A DNA stretch of 64,000 bases from Salinirubellus salinus (lineage in GTDB: Archaea > Halobacteriota > Halobacteria > Halobacteriales > Haloarculaceae): contig NZ_CP104003.1 in assembly GCF_025231485.1 (NCBI RefSeq), positions 1,612,001-1,676,000 on the forward strand. The letters run 5' to 3'. Below the pieces are notes generated by a model. That model had not been told where the DNA came from and did no database searches. It saw only the letters and a program-made list of their open reading frames with translations. The translations under genes and the position numbers were made by a program. Position 1 is the stretch's first letter. Each line of letters begins with the position of its first letter. Shown in pieces: positions 19,633 to 27,123 of the stretch.

Positions 19633-20583
19633 GTGAGTCTCTTTCGCGTGGTCCGTGCGGTCGCCGACGCCTCCGGCGAGGGCGCCGTCGACTGGCGTGC
19701 CGTCTCGGAGGCTGCCAAGGCCGCCACCAGTCCGGGGTCGCTCGCGCTGACCGACGAGCAGCGGGCGGGGTACGCCCGCGACGTCGAGGACGCCCGTGAC
19801 CGGGTCCGGACGGTCACGGGCATCGGCTTCGACCTCCCCGAGACCGTCGAGGTACAGCACCGCCACCACTGGATCGACGCCAACGTCGCCACGTTCGAAC
19901 GAGTGATGGAGCCCCTCGCCGACGAGGTCGGTCCGCTCCCCGGTCTCGCGCGGTCGATGAACAGCGGGACGATGGCCATCTCACTGGCCTTCCTCGCGAA
20001 CAACGTCCTCGGGCAGTACGACCCCCTCCTGCTGGCGGAGGGTGAGCCACACAAGCTCTACTTCGTGCACCCGAACATCGAGAAGGTGGCCCGGAGCTTG
20101 CGGGTCGACGCGCCCCGGTTTCGCCGCTGGATCGCCTTCCACGAGGTGACCCACGCGGCCGAGTTCGGTGCGGCGCCGTGGCTCCCCGGCAGACTGGAGG
20201 CCGCGATGCAGGAGGCCATCGAGGGACTCGGCGAGGGCAAACTGGACCGCGAGGCGATGCGCGAACTCGACACCACCATGACCGCCGTGGAGGGCTACGC
20301 CGAACTCGTGATGGACCGCGCGTTCGACGGCGAGTACGCCGACCTCCGCGCGAAGCTCGAGGCACGACGCCGTGGCCGCGGCCCCATCGCCCGCCTGATG
20401 CGCCGGTTCCTCGGCCTCGGCATGAAGCGCCAGCAGTACGAGCGCGGCAAGGCCTTCTTCGACGCCGTCGCCGACGCGCGCGGCGTCGAGGCCGCGAGCG
20501 TCGTCTGGTCGGACCCGGAGTTCCTGCCGACGAGCGAGGAACTGGACGACCCGTCGCGGTGGCTGGCGCGGGTCCCGGTGTAG
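19633..20583 (+). CDS. Zinc-dependent metalloprotease-like protein (DUF2342, F420-associated)
   Basis: A 316-residue protein of the zincin-like DUF2342 family, often annotated as coenzyme F420 biosynthesis-associated. The zinc motif is FHEVTHAAEFGAAPWLPGR (HExxH, about residue 170), followed by the conserved EGYAELVMD segment, whose Glu would be the third ligand. The N-terminal half has the family signature QHRHHWIDANVATFERVMEP and MNSGTMAISLAFLANNVLGQ. The start is GTG 19633. No F420 biosynthesis gene is nearby, so the link to F420 rests on family annotation only; proteolytic activity is inferred from the HExxH motif. Confidence 0.88.
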   Translation: MSLFRVVRAVADASGEGAVDWRAVSEAAKAATSPGSLALTDEQRAGYARDVEDARDRVRTVTGIGFDLPETVEVQHRHHWIDANVATFERVMEPLADEVGPLPGLARSMNSGTMAISLAFLANNVLGQYDPLLLAEGEPHKLYFVHPNIEKVARSLRVDAPRFRRWIAFHEVTHAAEFGAAPWLPGRLEAAMQEAIEGLGEGKLDREAMRELDTTMTAVEGYAELVMDRAFDGEYADLRAKLEARRRGRGPIARLMRRFLGLGMKRQQYERGKAFFDAVADARGVEAASVVWSDPEFLPTSEELDDPSRWLARVPV

Positions 20584-22240: not shown

Positions 22241-22831
22241 CTACGCGGGCGTGTCGAGAGCCGAGGCGGTCGAGTCTGCCGTCGTCTCCGTCGTGTTGTC
22301 GGTTGTCGAGGGACTCGTCTCCGGAGTCTTCCCCGCACTCGCGCAGAGGACCGTCACGGTGTAGTCGATGGTCCCGTGGAAACCACCGTCCGTCCCGTCG
22401 ACCACGACGGTCAGGTCGACTTCGTGGTGACTCCGCCCCGACCGCTGCCCGCAGTCGACGGTACCGCTCACCAGCCCCGTCCGCCGGGGTGCTACGTGCG
22501 TCGTGCTCACGGCGGACACGTCTGGCGACGTCCCGTCCGGGACCCTCGCCGTCACGCGCAGCGTCGTGTCGCCGAAGCGGTTGTAGACGCCGAACAGTGC
22601 GACGCGCTGGTTCTCGACCGTGACCGGTTCCTCGCGGGGACTCCACTCGGCGGGCCAGTCGGGTCGCGTCCCCTGCGAGCCGGGGTCGGCGAGGCCGACG
22701 AACGCGTCCTCGTGGTCGACGACGGCCACCGACACCCCACGGTCTAGCTCCGCCGCGCTGAACCCGCCGGTCCCGAACGCCAGCGCGAGCGCCGCGAACG
22801 TCGCCACCAGGAGCCAGACGCGCCGGTCCAT
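22241..22831 (-). CDS. Predicted secreted/anchored protein, coupled to the regulator
   Basis: A 196-residue protein with an N-terminal signal or anchor helix (MDRRVWLLVATFAALALAFG) followed by an exported-looking beta-rich domain (VSVAVVDHEDAFVGL, VTVENQRVALFGVYNRFGDT and DLTVVVDGTDG segments) with two cysteines that could form a disulfide, and a Ser/Thr-rich low-complexity C-terminus. VALFGVYNRF followed by strand-rich text resembles small envelope proteins found beside TasA/DUF1102-type genes, but I cannot assign a family. It begins immediately after the stop of the DUF7344-like regulator, so the two form an operon. Confidence 0.7.
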   Translation of the reverse strand: MDRRVWLLVATFAALALAFGTGGFSAAELDRGVSVAVVDHEDAFVGLADPGSQGTRPDWPAEWSPREEPVTVENQRVALFGVYNRFGDTTLRVTARVPDGTSPDVSAVSTTHVAPRRTGLVSGTVDCGQRSGRSHHEVDLTVVVDGTDGGFHGTIDYTVTVLCASAGKTPETSPSTTDNTTETTADSTASALDTPA

Positions 22832-23425
22832 CTACTCACCTCGCAGTTCGGGTGGTCGTTCGTGGCCGCCGAGCAGGCTCTCGTGCTGGTAGTAGTAGTT
22901 CGCGGCCGCGCTCACGAGGAACGCGACGACGGCGAAGATGCCCACTCCGACGCCCGAGAGCGCACCGAACGGTGTCACGCCGAGCGCGACGGCCACGAGC
23001 ACGGCCAGCGACACCCCACCGAGCGCGAGGTAGTACTCGCTCCACGGGATGTCCGCGCCGGGGACGACCTCGAGGTAGATATCGAGTTCGTCCGCGCGGT
23101 CGGTCAGTTCGACCTCTCGGCGCTCTACCTCCACGACGCCCGTCTCCTCCAGTTCGGGGACGTGCGTCTGCTGGAGCGCGTTGTACACCCGGCGGCGCTG
23201 TTTCGAGGTCACCTCCTCGACCGACACCTCGTTCTCCCACGCGGCGACCTGCGTCGCGAGGTTCCCCACGTCCACCGCCCCCTCGCGGTGCTTGAGGTGG
23301 TGGAGGGCGAACCGGCGCCGCCGGTTGCGCAGGATGTGGAACAGCTCGTCACGGTCGATCCCGTCCGGTTCCTCCGGCTGACTGTCCGGCTTCGGGCCGA
23401 CCGACTGTGATTTCGTCGTACTCAA
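22832..23425 (-). CDS. Membrane-bound winged-helix regulator (DUF7344-like)
   Basis: A 197-residue protein: an N-terminal ArsR-like/DUF7344 winged helix (about residues 25-110; DELFHILRNRRRRFALHHLK, EEVTSKQRRRVYNALQQTHV and PELEETGVVEVERREVELT) followed by two hydrophobic helices (about 133-178) and an acidic end. Such haloarchaeal proteins are thought to be DNA-binding regulators anchored in the membrane. It starts with TTG, supported by a strong Shine-Dalgarno. A perfect palindrome lies 26 bases upstream of the start, the likely operator. The coupled downstream gene is exported. Its natural target may be the divergent secretion-related cluster to the right. Confidence 0.82.
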   Translation of the reverse strand: MSTTKSQSVGPKPDSQPEEPDGIDRDELFHILRNRRRRFALHHLKHREGAVDVGNLATQVAAWENEVSVEEVTSKQRRRVYNALQQTHVPELEETGVVEVERREVELTDRADELDIYLEVVPGADIPWSEYYLALGGVSLAVLVAVALGVTPFGALSGVGVGIFAVVAFLVSAAANYYYQHESLLGGHERPPELRGE

Positions 23426-23430
23426 TCTAC

Positions 23431-23439
23431 TCTCCCCCC
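23431..23439 (-). promoter_or_regulatory. Shine-Dalgarno supporting a TTG start
   Basis: GGGGGGAGA on the minus strand lies five bases before TTG 23425. No ATG or GTG is near, so this element decides the start of the regulator. Confidence 0.5.
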
Positions 23440-23450
23440 TTTCGGGCCGC

Positions 23451-23471
23451 GTCAGACAATCATTGTCTGAC
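23451..23471. promoter_or_regulatory. Perfect 21-bp palindrome, probable operator
   Basis: The arm GTCAGACAAT is followed by one central C and then its exact reverse complement. It lies 26-46 bases upstream of the regulator start, overlapping the position expected for its promoter. A winged-helix dimer would bind such a site, so autoregulation is a reasonable inference. Confidence 0.65.
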
Positions 23472-23753
23472 TTACACCTTGAATCTACGGTTGGCTTTCA
23501 CGGGGCAAAGAAAGTAACAAACGATTATCACTCGCATAACGGACAGTAAGTCGGTCCTTGTGGGGGATTCAGGGTCGCGTTGTGGTGCCGATTCGGGTAT
23601 CACAACCGGGGCATGAGGCCCCAGCACTCGGGCTCAATCGGGGGCAGTGGGCCCCTCAATCTGCTCATGTAAACGGGGGTAGGGTGGAATGGATGGGATG
23701 TCGCGTGCCTCCCGGCGTGGGAGGTGTGGGATGCAACCAAGGTGAAATCGACA

Positions 23754-24371
23754 ATGGTGAAACGACGCAAGGTTCTGATCGGTGCGGGAGCATTGTTCGC
23801 TGGAAGTTCGGCTGCGGTTGGGACGGGCGCTCTGTCTCAGGCGTCTGTCGACAGAGGGATTAGTGGCCGTATCGCGAACGACACGAACGGCTACGTCAGC
23901 CTCAAGAAGGGATTCGACAACGGTGATCACGTCAGCTTCGGCGAGGGGGGCGAGCTGTCGCTCAACTTCGGCAACCTAGGTGCCGACGGGGCTGGCCTGA
24001 ATGCCGACTCAATCAACTACTTCGACTCGGTCTTCCGCGTGGAGATCAACGACGACGACGAGGGGCCCACTGGGGAGTACCAGAGCGAAGACGGTGAACC
24101 GACAATGAACGAGCCAGAGAACTACTACTTCTGGGTCACCGAGAACCTCGGACAGTACAACGATAACATCGACTTCTATCGCGCGGGGGGACGACAGAGC
24201 TCTATCGTCGGACCAGAGAACGCTCAGCAGCCGAACTCAGACAACGCGGGCTTCTGGGTCGGAGTCTGTATCGATCTCGACGACGAGGGCTTCGATGCTG
24301 GGGATGCGTTCGATATAGAGGACGCCTTCACGGTCCACGTCTCTGACAAGCCACCCGAGACCGATAGCTGA
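23754..24371 (+). CDS. Secreted DUF1102-type protein (TasA/CalY-like candidate)
   Basis: A 205-residue exported protein. The N-terminus MVKRRKVLIGAGALFAGSSA is a signal sequence with GTGALSQASVDRG near the cleavage region, the hallmark order of haloarchaeal DUF1102 proteins, followed by a beta-rich acidic domain (RIANDTNGYVSLKKGFDN and ELSLNFGNLGADGAGL) with ENYYFWVTENL and FWVGVCIDLDD segments. It is followed by a dedicated signal peptidase gene, as TasA is next to SipW in Bacillus. The start at 23754 is the MVKRRK Met; the in-frame ATG ten codons earlier is less likely. GC content is lower than in neighbours. Function is not established; matrix fibre subunit is an inference. Confidence 0.75.
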   Translation: MVKRRKVLIGAGALFAGSSAAVGTGALSQASVDRGISGRIANDTNGYVSLKKGFDNGDHVSFGEGGELSLNFGNLGADGAGLNADSINYFDSVFRVEINDDDEGPTGEYQSEDGEPTMNEPENYYFWVTENLGQYNDNIDFYRAGGRQSSIVGPENAQQPNSDNAGFWVGVCIDLDDEGFDAGDAFDIEDAFTVHVSDKPPETDS

Positions 24372-24479: not shown

Positions 24480-25622
24480 ATGGGCGGAACAGAGCGTATC
24501 GGGAGCATGTTGGAGACTGGGGGACTCATGCTCGTCGCCGTGCTATTCGTTGGTCAGCTATTCGGCGTCCCGTTCGGAATCGGCTTCGTCGAGACCGGGA
24601 GCATGGCGCCCACGTTACAGCCAGGTGATGGGTTCGTAGCCCTCCCCCCCGCGCTGCTCGGGGGCGTCGACAGTGGGGATGTGGTGACGTTCCGGGCCGA
24701 AGTGATAGAAGACGGACGCCTCACGACACACCGGGTCGTGAGCGAACGCTCAGGAGGGTATATTACTGGTGGTGATGCAAACCCGTTTACCGACCAGCAG
24801 GCTGGTGAACCGCTCGTAAGTCGGCAGGAGATAGCTGCAGAGGCTGTCCAGATAGGTGGGAGTGTATTGGTGATTCCGTTCGTCGGTAGGGTCGCCGCCG
24901 AGTCCACATCTTTATTGTTGTCTGTCGGTCGTCCGCTCGGTCTGAGTGACCAACAGGTCGCCGTGTTCATCCTCGTCGCTGCCATCGCCGCGTACTTTCT
25001 TGACGAGTCCGAGGCCACGGGCGAGAAGCGGACTGACCGCTCGACCGGACGCGCGACTGGCTTCTCCGGCCTCCTGCTCGTCGGCGGTGCAGTCGCGCTC
25101 GTGCTCGCTACGGCCACGATGAGTATGACAGCTGCGACCGGCGCGATTGCCCTCCCGTACGACAGCGTGGCCCCGGCAGAGGCAGGACAGGGCGGCATCC
25201 CGGCCGGCACGACGGCAAACGCCTCGGTGGAGCTCCAGAACGGCGGGCTCGTCCCGATGACGGCCGTACTCAGCACGTCGAACCCGAACGTCGAACTCGC
25301 ACAGGAGCGCGTCTCACTATCCCCGCGCGGGAACGCGTCCGTGAACGTGAGCATCACCGCTCCGAGCGAACCCGGGAGTTACGAGGTGACCGTCGAGCGA
25401 AAGCAGTACCTCGCGATCCTCCCCGTCGGTGTGCTCGGCGAACTCTCCGCGGTGAGCCACTGGCTCGCGGTCGCGGCCGTGGACCTCCTGCTCGCACTCG
25501 GCGTGGCTGCTATCGGTGCGAAGCTCGTCGGTGGGGGGCGGCTCCGACTGCGGCCGACGCGCTCGCTCCCGGTCGAAGTGGGGACCGCTCGCTGGGTTCG
25601 GTCGTTCTATCGGGACCGATGA
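24480..25622 (+). CDS. Archaeal/ER-type signal peptidase I with beta-sandwich extension
   Basis: Membrane signal peptidase of the Ser-His type (Sec11/SipW), 380 residues, over twice the usual size. N-terminal helix about residues 14-36; catalytic Ser41 in VETGSMAPTLQPGD, His84 in LTTHRVV (a Lys in bacterial enzymes), and aspartates in GGDANPFTDQ. Hydrophobic segments follow at about 155-172 and 195-218, then an extracytoplasmic beta-sandwich (about 225-300, SVELQNGGLVPMTAVLSTSN and SVNVSITAPSEPGSYEVTV) like NEW3/invasin-type domains, and a last helix (about 318-345). Neighbours suggest it serves the DUF1102 protein rather than bulk secretion. Confidence 0.88.
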   Translation: MGGTERIGSMLETGGLMLVAVLFVGQLFGVPFGIGFVETGSMAPTLQPGDGFVALPPALLGGVDSGDVVTFRAEVIEDGRLTTHRVVSERSGGYITGGDANPFTDQQAGEPLVSRQEIAAEAVQIGGSVLVIPFVGRVAAESTSLLLSVGRPLGLSDQQVAVFILVAAIAAYFLDESEATGEKRTDRSTGRATGFSGLLLVGGAVALVLATATMSMTAATGAIALPYDSVAPAEAGQGGIPAGTTANASVELQNGGLVPMTAVLSTSNPNVELAQERVSLSPRGNASVNVSITAPSEPGSYEVTVERKQYLAILPVGVLGELSAVSHWLAVAAVDLLLALGVAAIGAKLVGGGRLRLRPTRSLPVEVGTARWVRSFYRDR

Positions 25623-25671: not shown

Positions 25672-27123
25672 ATGACCGGGGGGTTGCGGGCACGGGCACT
25701 ACTGAACAGCCAGTTCGAACTCGTCGTCGCCGTCCTCGTCGTCCTCGCCGCCGTCGGCGGGTTCCTCGCCTACGGCGCGTACGCGCAGCCGAACACGACG
25801 ACGGAGACGAACGAGGTGACCGTCTGGGCGCCGAACGGCACGTTCACGCACGGGTCGACGGTCACCGACAACGAGAGCAAGCTCGCGGGGGTGTTCGAGC
25901 CCGGCCAGTCGGTGGCGAACCGAAGCGTCTACTACGGGTCGATAATGCCCGAACTGTCTGGCGAGTTCGGGTTCCAGTACGCGGCCGAGTCGGGGGAACT
26001 GAACGCCACCATCGAGCGGACGCTGGTGATACGGAGCGTCGGGCAGGCCCGCGAGGGGAGTACGGAGTACTGGCGCGAGACCGAGCGGCTCGGCCGCGGG
26101 AGTGCGACCCTCTCGCCCGACGAGGCCGCGCGCGTCCCGTACGCGGTGAACGTGAGCGCGGCGCGGGAACGGGCCGACACGATACACGAGCGGCTGGGCG
26201 ACCCCGGCCAGACGCGGGTGAGCGTCAACGTCACGGTCGCGCTCTCGGGGACCGCGGGCGGGGAGGAGGTGGACCGGACGCTGGAGTACGCGCTCCCGCT
26301 CGCCCTCGAGGGGCAGGTCTACCGCGTCGGGCCGGTGACCGAGGTCGCACCCGTCACCCGCACCGAACGCGTGACCGTCACGCAAGAGCCCGGTCCGCTC
26401 GGTGCCTACGGGGGACCGGGACTCCTCGCGCTGTCGCTCGTGGGGCTGGTCGGGCTCGCCTACGCGCGGTACGACGGTCGACTCGGACTCGACGAAGCGG
26501 AGCGGACGTGGCTGGCCTACCGCGACGACCGAAGTGACTTCGACGAGTGGATCTCCACCATCCGTCTGCCCGAGGAGGCCCGCGAACTCCCGGTCGCGGA
26601 GGCCGACGCGCTCTCGGACCTCGTGGACTTCGCCATCGACACGGACAACTCGGTGCTGGAGGCACCCGGCAGCGGGAGTTACCACGTCGTCCACGACGGC
26701 TACCGCTACACGTTCGAGGCGCCGCGGGACCCGACGCTGACGACGACGGACACGACGGACGCGGCGAGCGCGACCGAGCCCGCGCCGAACCCGAACCCTG
26801 GCGGGGCGGGGATGCTCCGAGGTGGCGCCGCCGCGGACGCCGACGCCGGAACGGGTCCGACCTCGACCGACGCGGCCGAGTCGAGCGGTGGCGGTGGGGT
26901 GGACGACCTCCGGTCGCTCAGGGGGGTCGGCCCGACGTACGCGGCGCGGTTGCGCGAGGCTGGTATCGACGGGCCGGCGGACCTCCTCGAGGCCGACCCG
27001 GACCGGGTCGCCGAGGAGGCCGGCATCCCGACAGAGGGGGTCGAGACCCTCGTCGAGCGAGCGAGGAACCTCGTGGAGCGCGACCCCTCGGCCGACGGAG
27101 GAGACGGCGGGACGACCGAGTGA
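25672..27123 (+). CDS. DUF5305 membrane protein with helix-hairpin-helix tail
   Basis: A 483-residue protein of unknown function. A membrane helix near the N-terminus (about 16-38) is followed by a large extracytoplasmic DUF5305 domain (about 40-235; EVTVWAPNGTFTHGSTVTDN and PELSGEFGFQYAAESGELN), a second helix (about 243-263) and a cytoplasmic part with a Ser/Thr/Pro/Gly-rich linker. The C-terminus has an unexpected helix-hairpin-helix (LRSLRGVGPTYAARLREAGI and ADLLEADPDRVAEEAGI), normally seen in DNA-repair or rRNA-binding proteins. It follows the signal peptidase by 49 bases. In archaea DUF5305 genes recur next to such peptidases, so a joint role in the surface structure is likely. Confidence 0.83.
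   Translation: MTGGLRARALLNSQFELVVAVLVVLAAVGGFLAYGAYAQPNTTTETNEVTVWAPNGTFTHGSTVTDNESKLAGVFEPGQSVANRSVYYGSIMPELSGEFGFQYAAESGELNATIERTLVIRSVGQAREGSTEYWRETERLGRGSATLSPDEAARVPYAVNVSAARERADTIHERLGDPGQTRVSVNVTVALSGTAGGEEVDRTLEYALPLALEGQVYRVGPVTEVAPVTRTERVTVTQEPGPLGAYGGPGLLALSLVGLVGLAYARYDGRLGLDEAERTWLAYRDDRSDFDEWISTIRLPEEARELPVAEADALSDLVDFAIDTDNSVLEAPGSGSYHVVHDGYRYTFEAPRDPTLTTTDTTDAASATEPAPNPNPGGAGMLRGGAAADADAGTGPTSTDAAESSGGGGVDDLRSLRGVGPTYAARLREAGIDGPADLLEADPDRVAEEAGIPTEGVETLVERARNLVERDPSADGGDGGTTE

Follow-up and report, generated by a model that had tools for sequence, protein, structure and literature searches.

The window, that is, the whole 64-kb stretch of Salinirubellus salinus DNA analyzed here, contains a gene of the DUF7344 family and a fibre-type gene that diverge from a 328-bp intergenic gap. 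Within this gap lies GTCAGACAATCATTGTCTGAC, a 21-bp palindrome made up of two 10-bp arms around a single C. The preliminary description had reported it as perfect, and this is confirmed; the flanking bases do not pair. It is located 25 bp upstream of the TTG start codon (23425) of the DUF7344 gene and 282 bp from the ATG (23754) of the fibre-type gene. Read on the minus strand, which is that of the regulator, the palindrome is followed by GGGGGGAG and then by the TTG. The features of the locus are the following:

22241 to 22831, minus strand: next gene after the DUF7344 gene, with weak likeness to the TafC fimbrial protein (NCBIfam, below cut-off)
22832 to 23425, minus strand: DUF7344 gene with TTG start (profile match; predicted winged-helix at residues 22 to 117, approximately, and two C-terminal helices)
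23432 to 23439, minus strand: GGGGGGAG, a stretch resembling a Shine-Dalgarno sequence, 6 nt upstream of the TTG, its role being presumed from sequence
23451 to 23471, no strand assigned: 21-bp palindrome, putative operator (sequence, uniqueness and shuffle tests)
23451 to 23458, no strand assigned: box 1, GTCAGACA, fitting GTCWGACR (sequence and box scoring)
23464 to 23471, no strand assigned: box 2, TGTCTGAC, fitting YGTCWGAC (sequence and box scoring)
23655 to 23675, plus strand: CTCAATCTGCTCATGTAAACG, probable core promoter of the fibre-type gene (from comparison)
23754 to 24371, plus strand: divergent fibre-type gene with weak TafE likeness (NCBIfam, below cut-off)
24480 to 25622, plus strand: signal peptidase I-like gene (NCBIfam, just under cut-off)
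25672 to 27123, plus strand: DUF5305 protein with a helix-hairpin-helix end (profile match)

The DUF7344 gene matches PF24035 with an E-value of 4.7e-26 and 91.4 bits, well above the gathering score of 27.8, and thus belongs to the family. Its neighbours score below the NCBIfam cut-offs for Taf fimbriae (30.7 bits against 410 for TafC, and 34.2 against 155 for TafE). In the papers searched, nothing was found on TafA/TafE and haloarchaeal fimbriae, and there was no mention of DUF7344. The S. salinus genome contains seven DUF7344 matches at E ≤ 0.001 (L001 and L035 to L040), and at least two of them (L035 and L036) lie opposite divergent genes resembling exported proteins.

The predicted model of the DUF7344 protein consists of a confident winged-helix domain and two C-terminal helices that probably form a membrane hairpin, suggesting that the gene probably encodes a DNA-binding regulator bound to the membrane. 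The top structural match of the N-terminal domain is RosR of Halobacterium salinarum, a winged-helix protein whose structures include DNA (PDB 6qfd and 6qua), with a Z of 10.3 and an rmsd of 1.8 over 79 residues for 6qfd, all Foldseek E-values for the model being above 0.05. Sequence identity with RosR is low (15%) and the DUF7344 protein adds the two C-terminal helices; the likeness is one of predicted fold. A search of PDB sequences with the DUF7344 profile returned no match, and no relative of the protein was found in viral contigs. Family members show good conservation of the presumed recognition helix. A similar layout, with a DNA-binding domain, a membrane part and a connection to surface-filament genes, is seen in ArnR and ArnR1 of Sulfolobus, described as membrane-located, with a helix-turn-helix at the N-terminus, and as acting on the promoter of the archaellum (PMC13286277), and it is the layout alone that is compared here. 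From its neighbourhood, the DUF7344 product presumably acts on the adjoining fibre genes.

The expectation that so perfect a repeat would be rare by chance was upheld inside the intergenic gap, but not across the window. With arms of at least 10 bp and spacers of 0 to 1, the window contains two perfect palindromes; the mean over 30 dinucleotide shuffles was 0.7, and half of the shuffles (15) contained at least one. With spacers of 0 to 8, the window contains six against a shuffle mean of 3.9. For the 328-bp gap, in contrast, a perfect palindrome appeared in only 0.067% of 3000 shuffles (approximately 7e-4). At spacers of 0 to 8, no perfect inverted repeat in the window is longer than one within the Zincin_2 gene (19792 to 19821), which has 11-bp arms and an 8-bp loop.

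According to the preliminary description, an operator role would be refuted if the palindrome occurred many times at unrelated sites or was absent from close relatives with the same gene. Multiple occurrence was not observed, as GTCAGACAATCATTGTCTGAC is the sole match at up to three mismatches in both the window and the whole 4.38-Mb genome. Absence from relatives was observed, since neither the palindrome nor an exact box is present at the nearest orthologues (L046, L047, L048 and L156 to L159), although these all belong to other genera (67% identity for Salinigranum, 54 to 63% for L156 to L159). Among 146 family genomes, four contain the palindrome at up to three mismatches, S. salinus included, and the remaining three (L032, L033 and L034) each show three mismatches. 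A search of plasmids yielded 21 records with partial matches alone, mostly covering the DUF7344 coding part. The exact pattern, with W allowed in the arms, was not found in viral contigs; for this reason and because the palindrome is unique in the genome, a mobile element or repeated site was rejected.

The identity of the arms is a better argument than the rarity of the palindrome. Each arm holds TGTCWGAC, a word that recurs upstream of DUF7344 homologues, in agreement with the earlier suggestion that the palindrome sits at the promoter of the regulator. The homologue set comprises 116 loci in all, taken from the genome collection and GTDB contigs. With the S. salinus loci left out, TGTCTGAC ranked first among all 8-mers upstream of DUF7344 genes, occurring at 30 of 108 loci and in 1 of 629 background windows; TGTCAGAC ranked fifth, with 23 of 108 loci and again 1 of 629 windows. 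These counts refer to loci that are not independent, as some represent the same genome twice through the two genome sources and the Halorubrum-type rows are closely related. After removal of the Halorubrum-type loci as well, TGTCTGAC remained the top 8-mer (10 of 79). Since TGTCTGACA and TGTCAGACA are mutual reverse complements, the word can simply be read as a symmetrical box, TGTC-W-GACA. In the site columns (n = 29) the centre is T in 17 cases and A in 12, whereas the invariance of the other bases arises by construction and is not evidence, the sites having been chosen by TGTC[AT]GAC.

The word also has a characteristic position. In 26 of 30 cases, TGTCWGAC lies exactly 16 nt downstream of a TATA-like hexamer, a spacing that would place it at about the transcription start. 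When occurrences were counted in 100-base bins up to 5 kb on either side of DUF7344 (80 loci, 802,410 bases), 25 of 49 fell into the bins from -200 to +99 around the start of the DUF7344 match, that is, within 3% of the sequence. The pattern TTTATG-N14..17-TGTCWGAC had 34 matches in 293 genomes, against 26 for the backwards control; of the 33 matches whose context was read, all but that in G065, 19 precede DUF7344 (18 loci and a second match in G246) and 14 do not. In a Halorubrum-type genus (g25), the pattern marks DUF7344 in every match. A trivial source of the word is the sequence ATGTCWGAC, which can encode a start codon followed by Ser-Asp; such starts may explain L024 and several scattered matches, but not the sites at 16 nt from a TATA-like hexamer. 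In two genomes of one genus (L183 in G240 and L184 in G326), a TATA-N16-TGTCTGAC arrangement precedes archaellin-like genes, which could be due to chance. At another locus (L185, G246), tandem DUF7344 copies, one of them apparently frame-shifted, have identical promoter boxes.

The distribution of the word over the family is uneven. In a tree of 115 DUF7344 rows, 113 of them distinct and some pairs near-identical, the word was present in 33 rows, including the gene of the window, and 32 of these 33 fall inside one group of 65. It was absent from all 34 members of one large clade and from the remaining members of the small clade to which the window gene belongs. The window site itself departs from the common arrangement, as neither box has a TATA-like hexamer 16 nt upstream and no clear TATA box is found near the palindrome. 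Most DUF7344 promoters carry a single box, and a fixed second box, sought across them, was not found in general; the promoter of Halobaculum L062 is one with a pair separated by two bases (N2), its second box matching at 7 of 8 positions.

Paired boxes are a regular feature of ftsZ1 promoters. Among 55 genomes with an ftsZ1 match, 50 promoters from the family (L228 to L277) were examined, and 48 of them, including that of S. salinus (L258), carry GTCWGACR-N2-YGTCWGAC 62 to 66 nt before the ATG, the centre of the first box being A in 26, T in 20 and C in 2. Both promoters without the pair (L261 and L263) belong to genus g19, which also has 21-bp N5 palindromes before an etfA-like gene (L198 and L199). 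Exact pairs of the GTCAGACA-N-TGTCTGAC type with spacers of 0 to 12 were found in 20 of 392 genomes, compared with 7 in the control, and comprise 15 N2, three N5, one N3 and one N9 pairs. The three N5 pairs are that of S. salinus and two in one other genus, before an electron-transfer flavoprotein-like gene. Several of the N2 pairs sit in ftsZ1 promoters, FtsZ having been read directly in L195, L206, L207 and L209 and recognized through the same neighbour or flank in L205, L208, L210 and L211. Other N2 pairs were seen in two distant genomes beside the same small helix-turn-helix-like protein, for which no NCBIfam family was found (L212 and L214), and N2-type pairs lie approximately 200 bp downstream of a NOB1-like gene in two genera (L200 and L221). 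The S. salinus genome contains 18 N2 pairs at up to three mismatches, against 3 in the control. One of them (L215) is located 55 bp before cdrL, at the head of cdrL-cdrS-ftsZ2, and another (L225) 156 bp before a threonine ammonia-lyase gene (TIGR01127). As in the CdrS system, genes for CdrL, CdrS and FtsZ2 are present, CdrS being recognized by NF058555 above its cut-off and CdrL by its CdrL_M and RHH_1 domains.

CdrS is a small ribbon-helix-helix protein for which ChIP-seq in Haloferax volcanii identified 18 sites with a symmetrical motif, among them the ftsZ1 promoter, dacZ, proteasome genes and threonine ammonia-lyase (PMC8406309). Most of the published sites lie 41 to 110 nt upstream of the transcription start and two overlap it, and, as far as the published target table goes, no DUF7344 gene is named (PMC8406309). 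From these common promoters, rather than from the letters of the published motif, we infer that the word is a CdrS-type box. The palindrome resembles the H. volcanii CdrS site at ftsZ1 and its counterparts in having two inverted YGTCWGACR boxes in a promoter, each box scoring 8 of 8 against this word. It differs from them in its spacer of 5 bp (box centres 14 bp apart) instead of 2 bp (11 bp), and in its place before a DUF7344 gene. Because the 2-bp spacer is absent, the palindrome is classified as a variant and not as a member of the CdrS-type operators, an assignment made with moderate confidence and with binding being putative. Semi-palindromic operators by the TATA boxes of surface-filament genes are also described for CsmR of H. 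volcanii, with which the window site may be compared in this respect; however, CsmR is a different protein and its motif, which was compared with Lrp/AsnC motifs, is TATCA(N4)TGATA (PMC13286277).

The reading that we favour, and to which we would give an even chance, is that the palindrome serves the DUF7344 gene as a promoter-proximal operator, composed of two inverted CdrS-type boxes and bound by a CdrS/CdrL-type ribbon-helix-helix protein. What can be read directly from the DNA is the boxes themselves, the further copies upstream of DUF7344 and ftsZ1 genes, and the cdrL-cdrS-ftsZ2 genes. Several observations speak against a CdrS-type operator, namely the 5-bp spacer, the single boxes in most DUF7344 promoters, the lack of the TATA-N16 arrangement at this site, and the nearest orthologues without the box. 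Its main rival is autoregulation, in which a winged-helix dimer of the DUF7344 protein would sit on the palindrome with one monomer per arm and repress its own gene. The predicted fold, closest to winged-helix regulators and above all to DNA-bound RosR, is consistent with it, as are the 21-bp dyad, which suits such a dimer, the presence of the box before the gene in the wider family and, in genus g25, its constant association with DUF7344, as expected of a gene-specific site. Single boxes located after the TATA element mainly before DUF7344 genes would fit self-regulation equally. Nevertheless, the recognition helix is conserved and yet the box is missing from the entire 34-member clade and from the nearest relatives; a single 9-bp box, which is what most DUF7344 sites offer, is small for a winged-helix dimer; the Foldseek E-values all exceed 0.05; and it would take a coincidence to explain why ftsZ1 promoters have the same box. 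It is this shared word in ftsZ1 promoters that leads us to prefer CdrS over a self-operator, and we consider autoregulation unlikely.

The preliminary description had further proposed that the palindrome may be an operator shared with the surface genes; in this reading, a single protein on it would control the divergent fibre gene together with the DUF7344 gene. The divergent layout around a short gap would allow this, and isolated boxes do occur before genes for fibre-type or exported proteins elsewhere (L054, L111 and L114). The positional counts do not support it: the boxes cluster at the DUF7344 start and none was found in the bins from -300 to -1600, the usual place of the divergent fibre promoter. 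At this locus, the likely fibre promoter (23655 to 23675) lies approximately 200 bp away, and its core, CTGCTCATGTAAACG, is common to Salinigranum salinum, which itself lacks the palindrome. The fibre side also has repeated words of its own, the region 120 to 500 bp upstream of DUF7344 genes being rich in CYTGAA (GCCTGAA in 37 of 115 loci compared with 16 of 646 background windows), and these words are likely to form a second, distinct candidate operator, one for the fibre genes. By eye, GCTTGAA and GCCTGAA are often approximately 21 bp apart or arranged as TTCAAG-N5-CTTGAA near the divergent fibre gene (e.g., L018, L027, L109, L119, L124 and L125). Given the distant fibre promoter and the separate CYTGAA words, the palindrome most likely serves the regulator gene alone, and a shared operator is very improbable. 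A palindrome arisen by chance and devoid of function is somewhat less improbable, considering the number expected per 64 kb and its absence from the nearest orthologues, but still hard to reconcile with its position in so short a gap and with arms that correspond to the word ranking first in other DUF7344 promoters when S. salinus is left out of the count. Least probable of all, and by our estimate very unlikely, is that the 5' leader of the DUF7344 mRNA forms a hairpin affecting its translation or stability. The minus strand can form a 9-bp stem with a 3-nt loop, the 81-nt stretch has a folding energy of -20.3 kcal/mol (z -2.11), and the Shine-Dalgarno-like sequence follows; however, any DNA palindrome folds likewise, and the element found repeatedly upstream of other DUF7344 genes, a single short box, forms no such hairpin.

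If the palindrome is a variant CdrS-type operator, a ribbon-helix-helix protein of the CdrS/CdrL kind would bind it with one dimer per box, the 5-bp spacer would be functional, and the bound protein, close to the start codon, would repress the DUF7344 gene. The DUF7344 product may in turn control the neighbouring fibre genes, and division control could thereby reach the fibres. A broader proposal, which we advance tentatively and hold to be somewhat short of an even chance, is that across Halobacteria CdrS or a close ribbon-helix-helix relative acts via YGTCWGACR at the transcription start of genes encoding membrane-anchored DUF7344 regulators, coupling surface fibre production to growth and division, and that the S. 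salinus version is strengthened by its two boxes, whose centres are an unusual 14 bp apart. The comparison provides, in GTCWGACR-NN-YGTCWGAC, a letter-by-letter candidate for the haloarchaeal cell-division operator. As DUF7344 is a Pfam family without known function, the boxes, if confirmed, would be the first handle on the control of DUF7344 genes and would represent a direct, testable link of division control to surface filaments in archaea.
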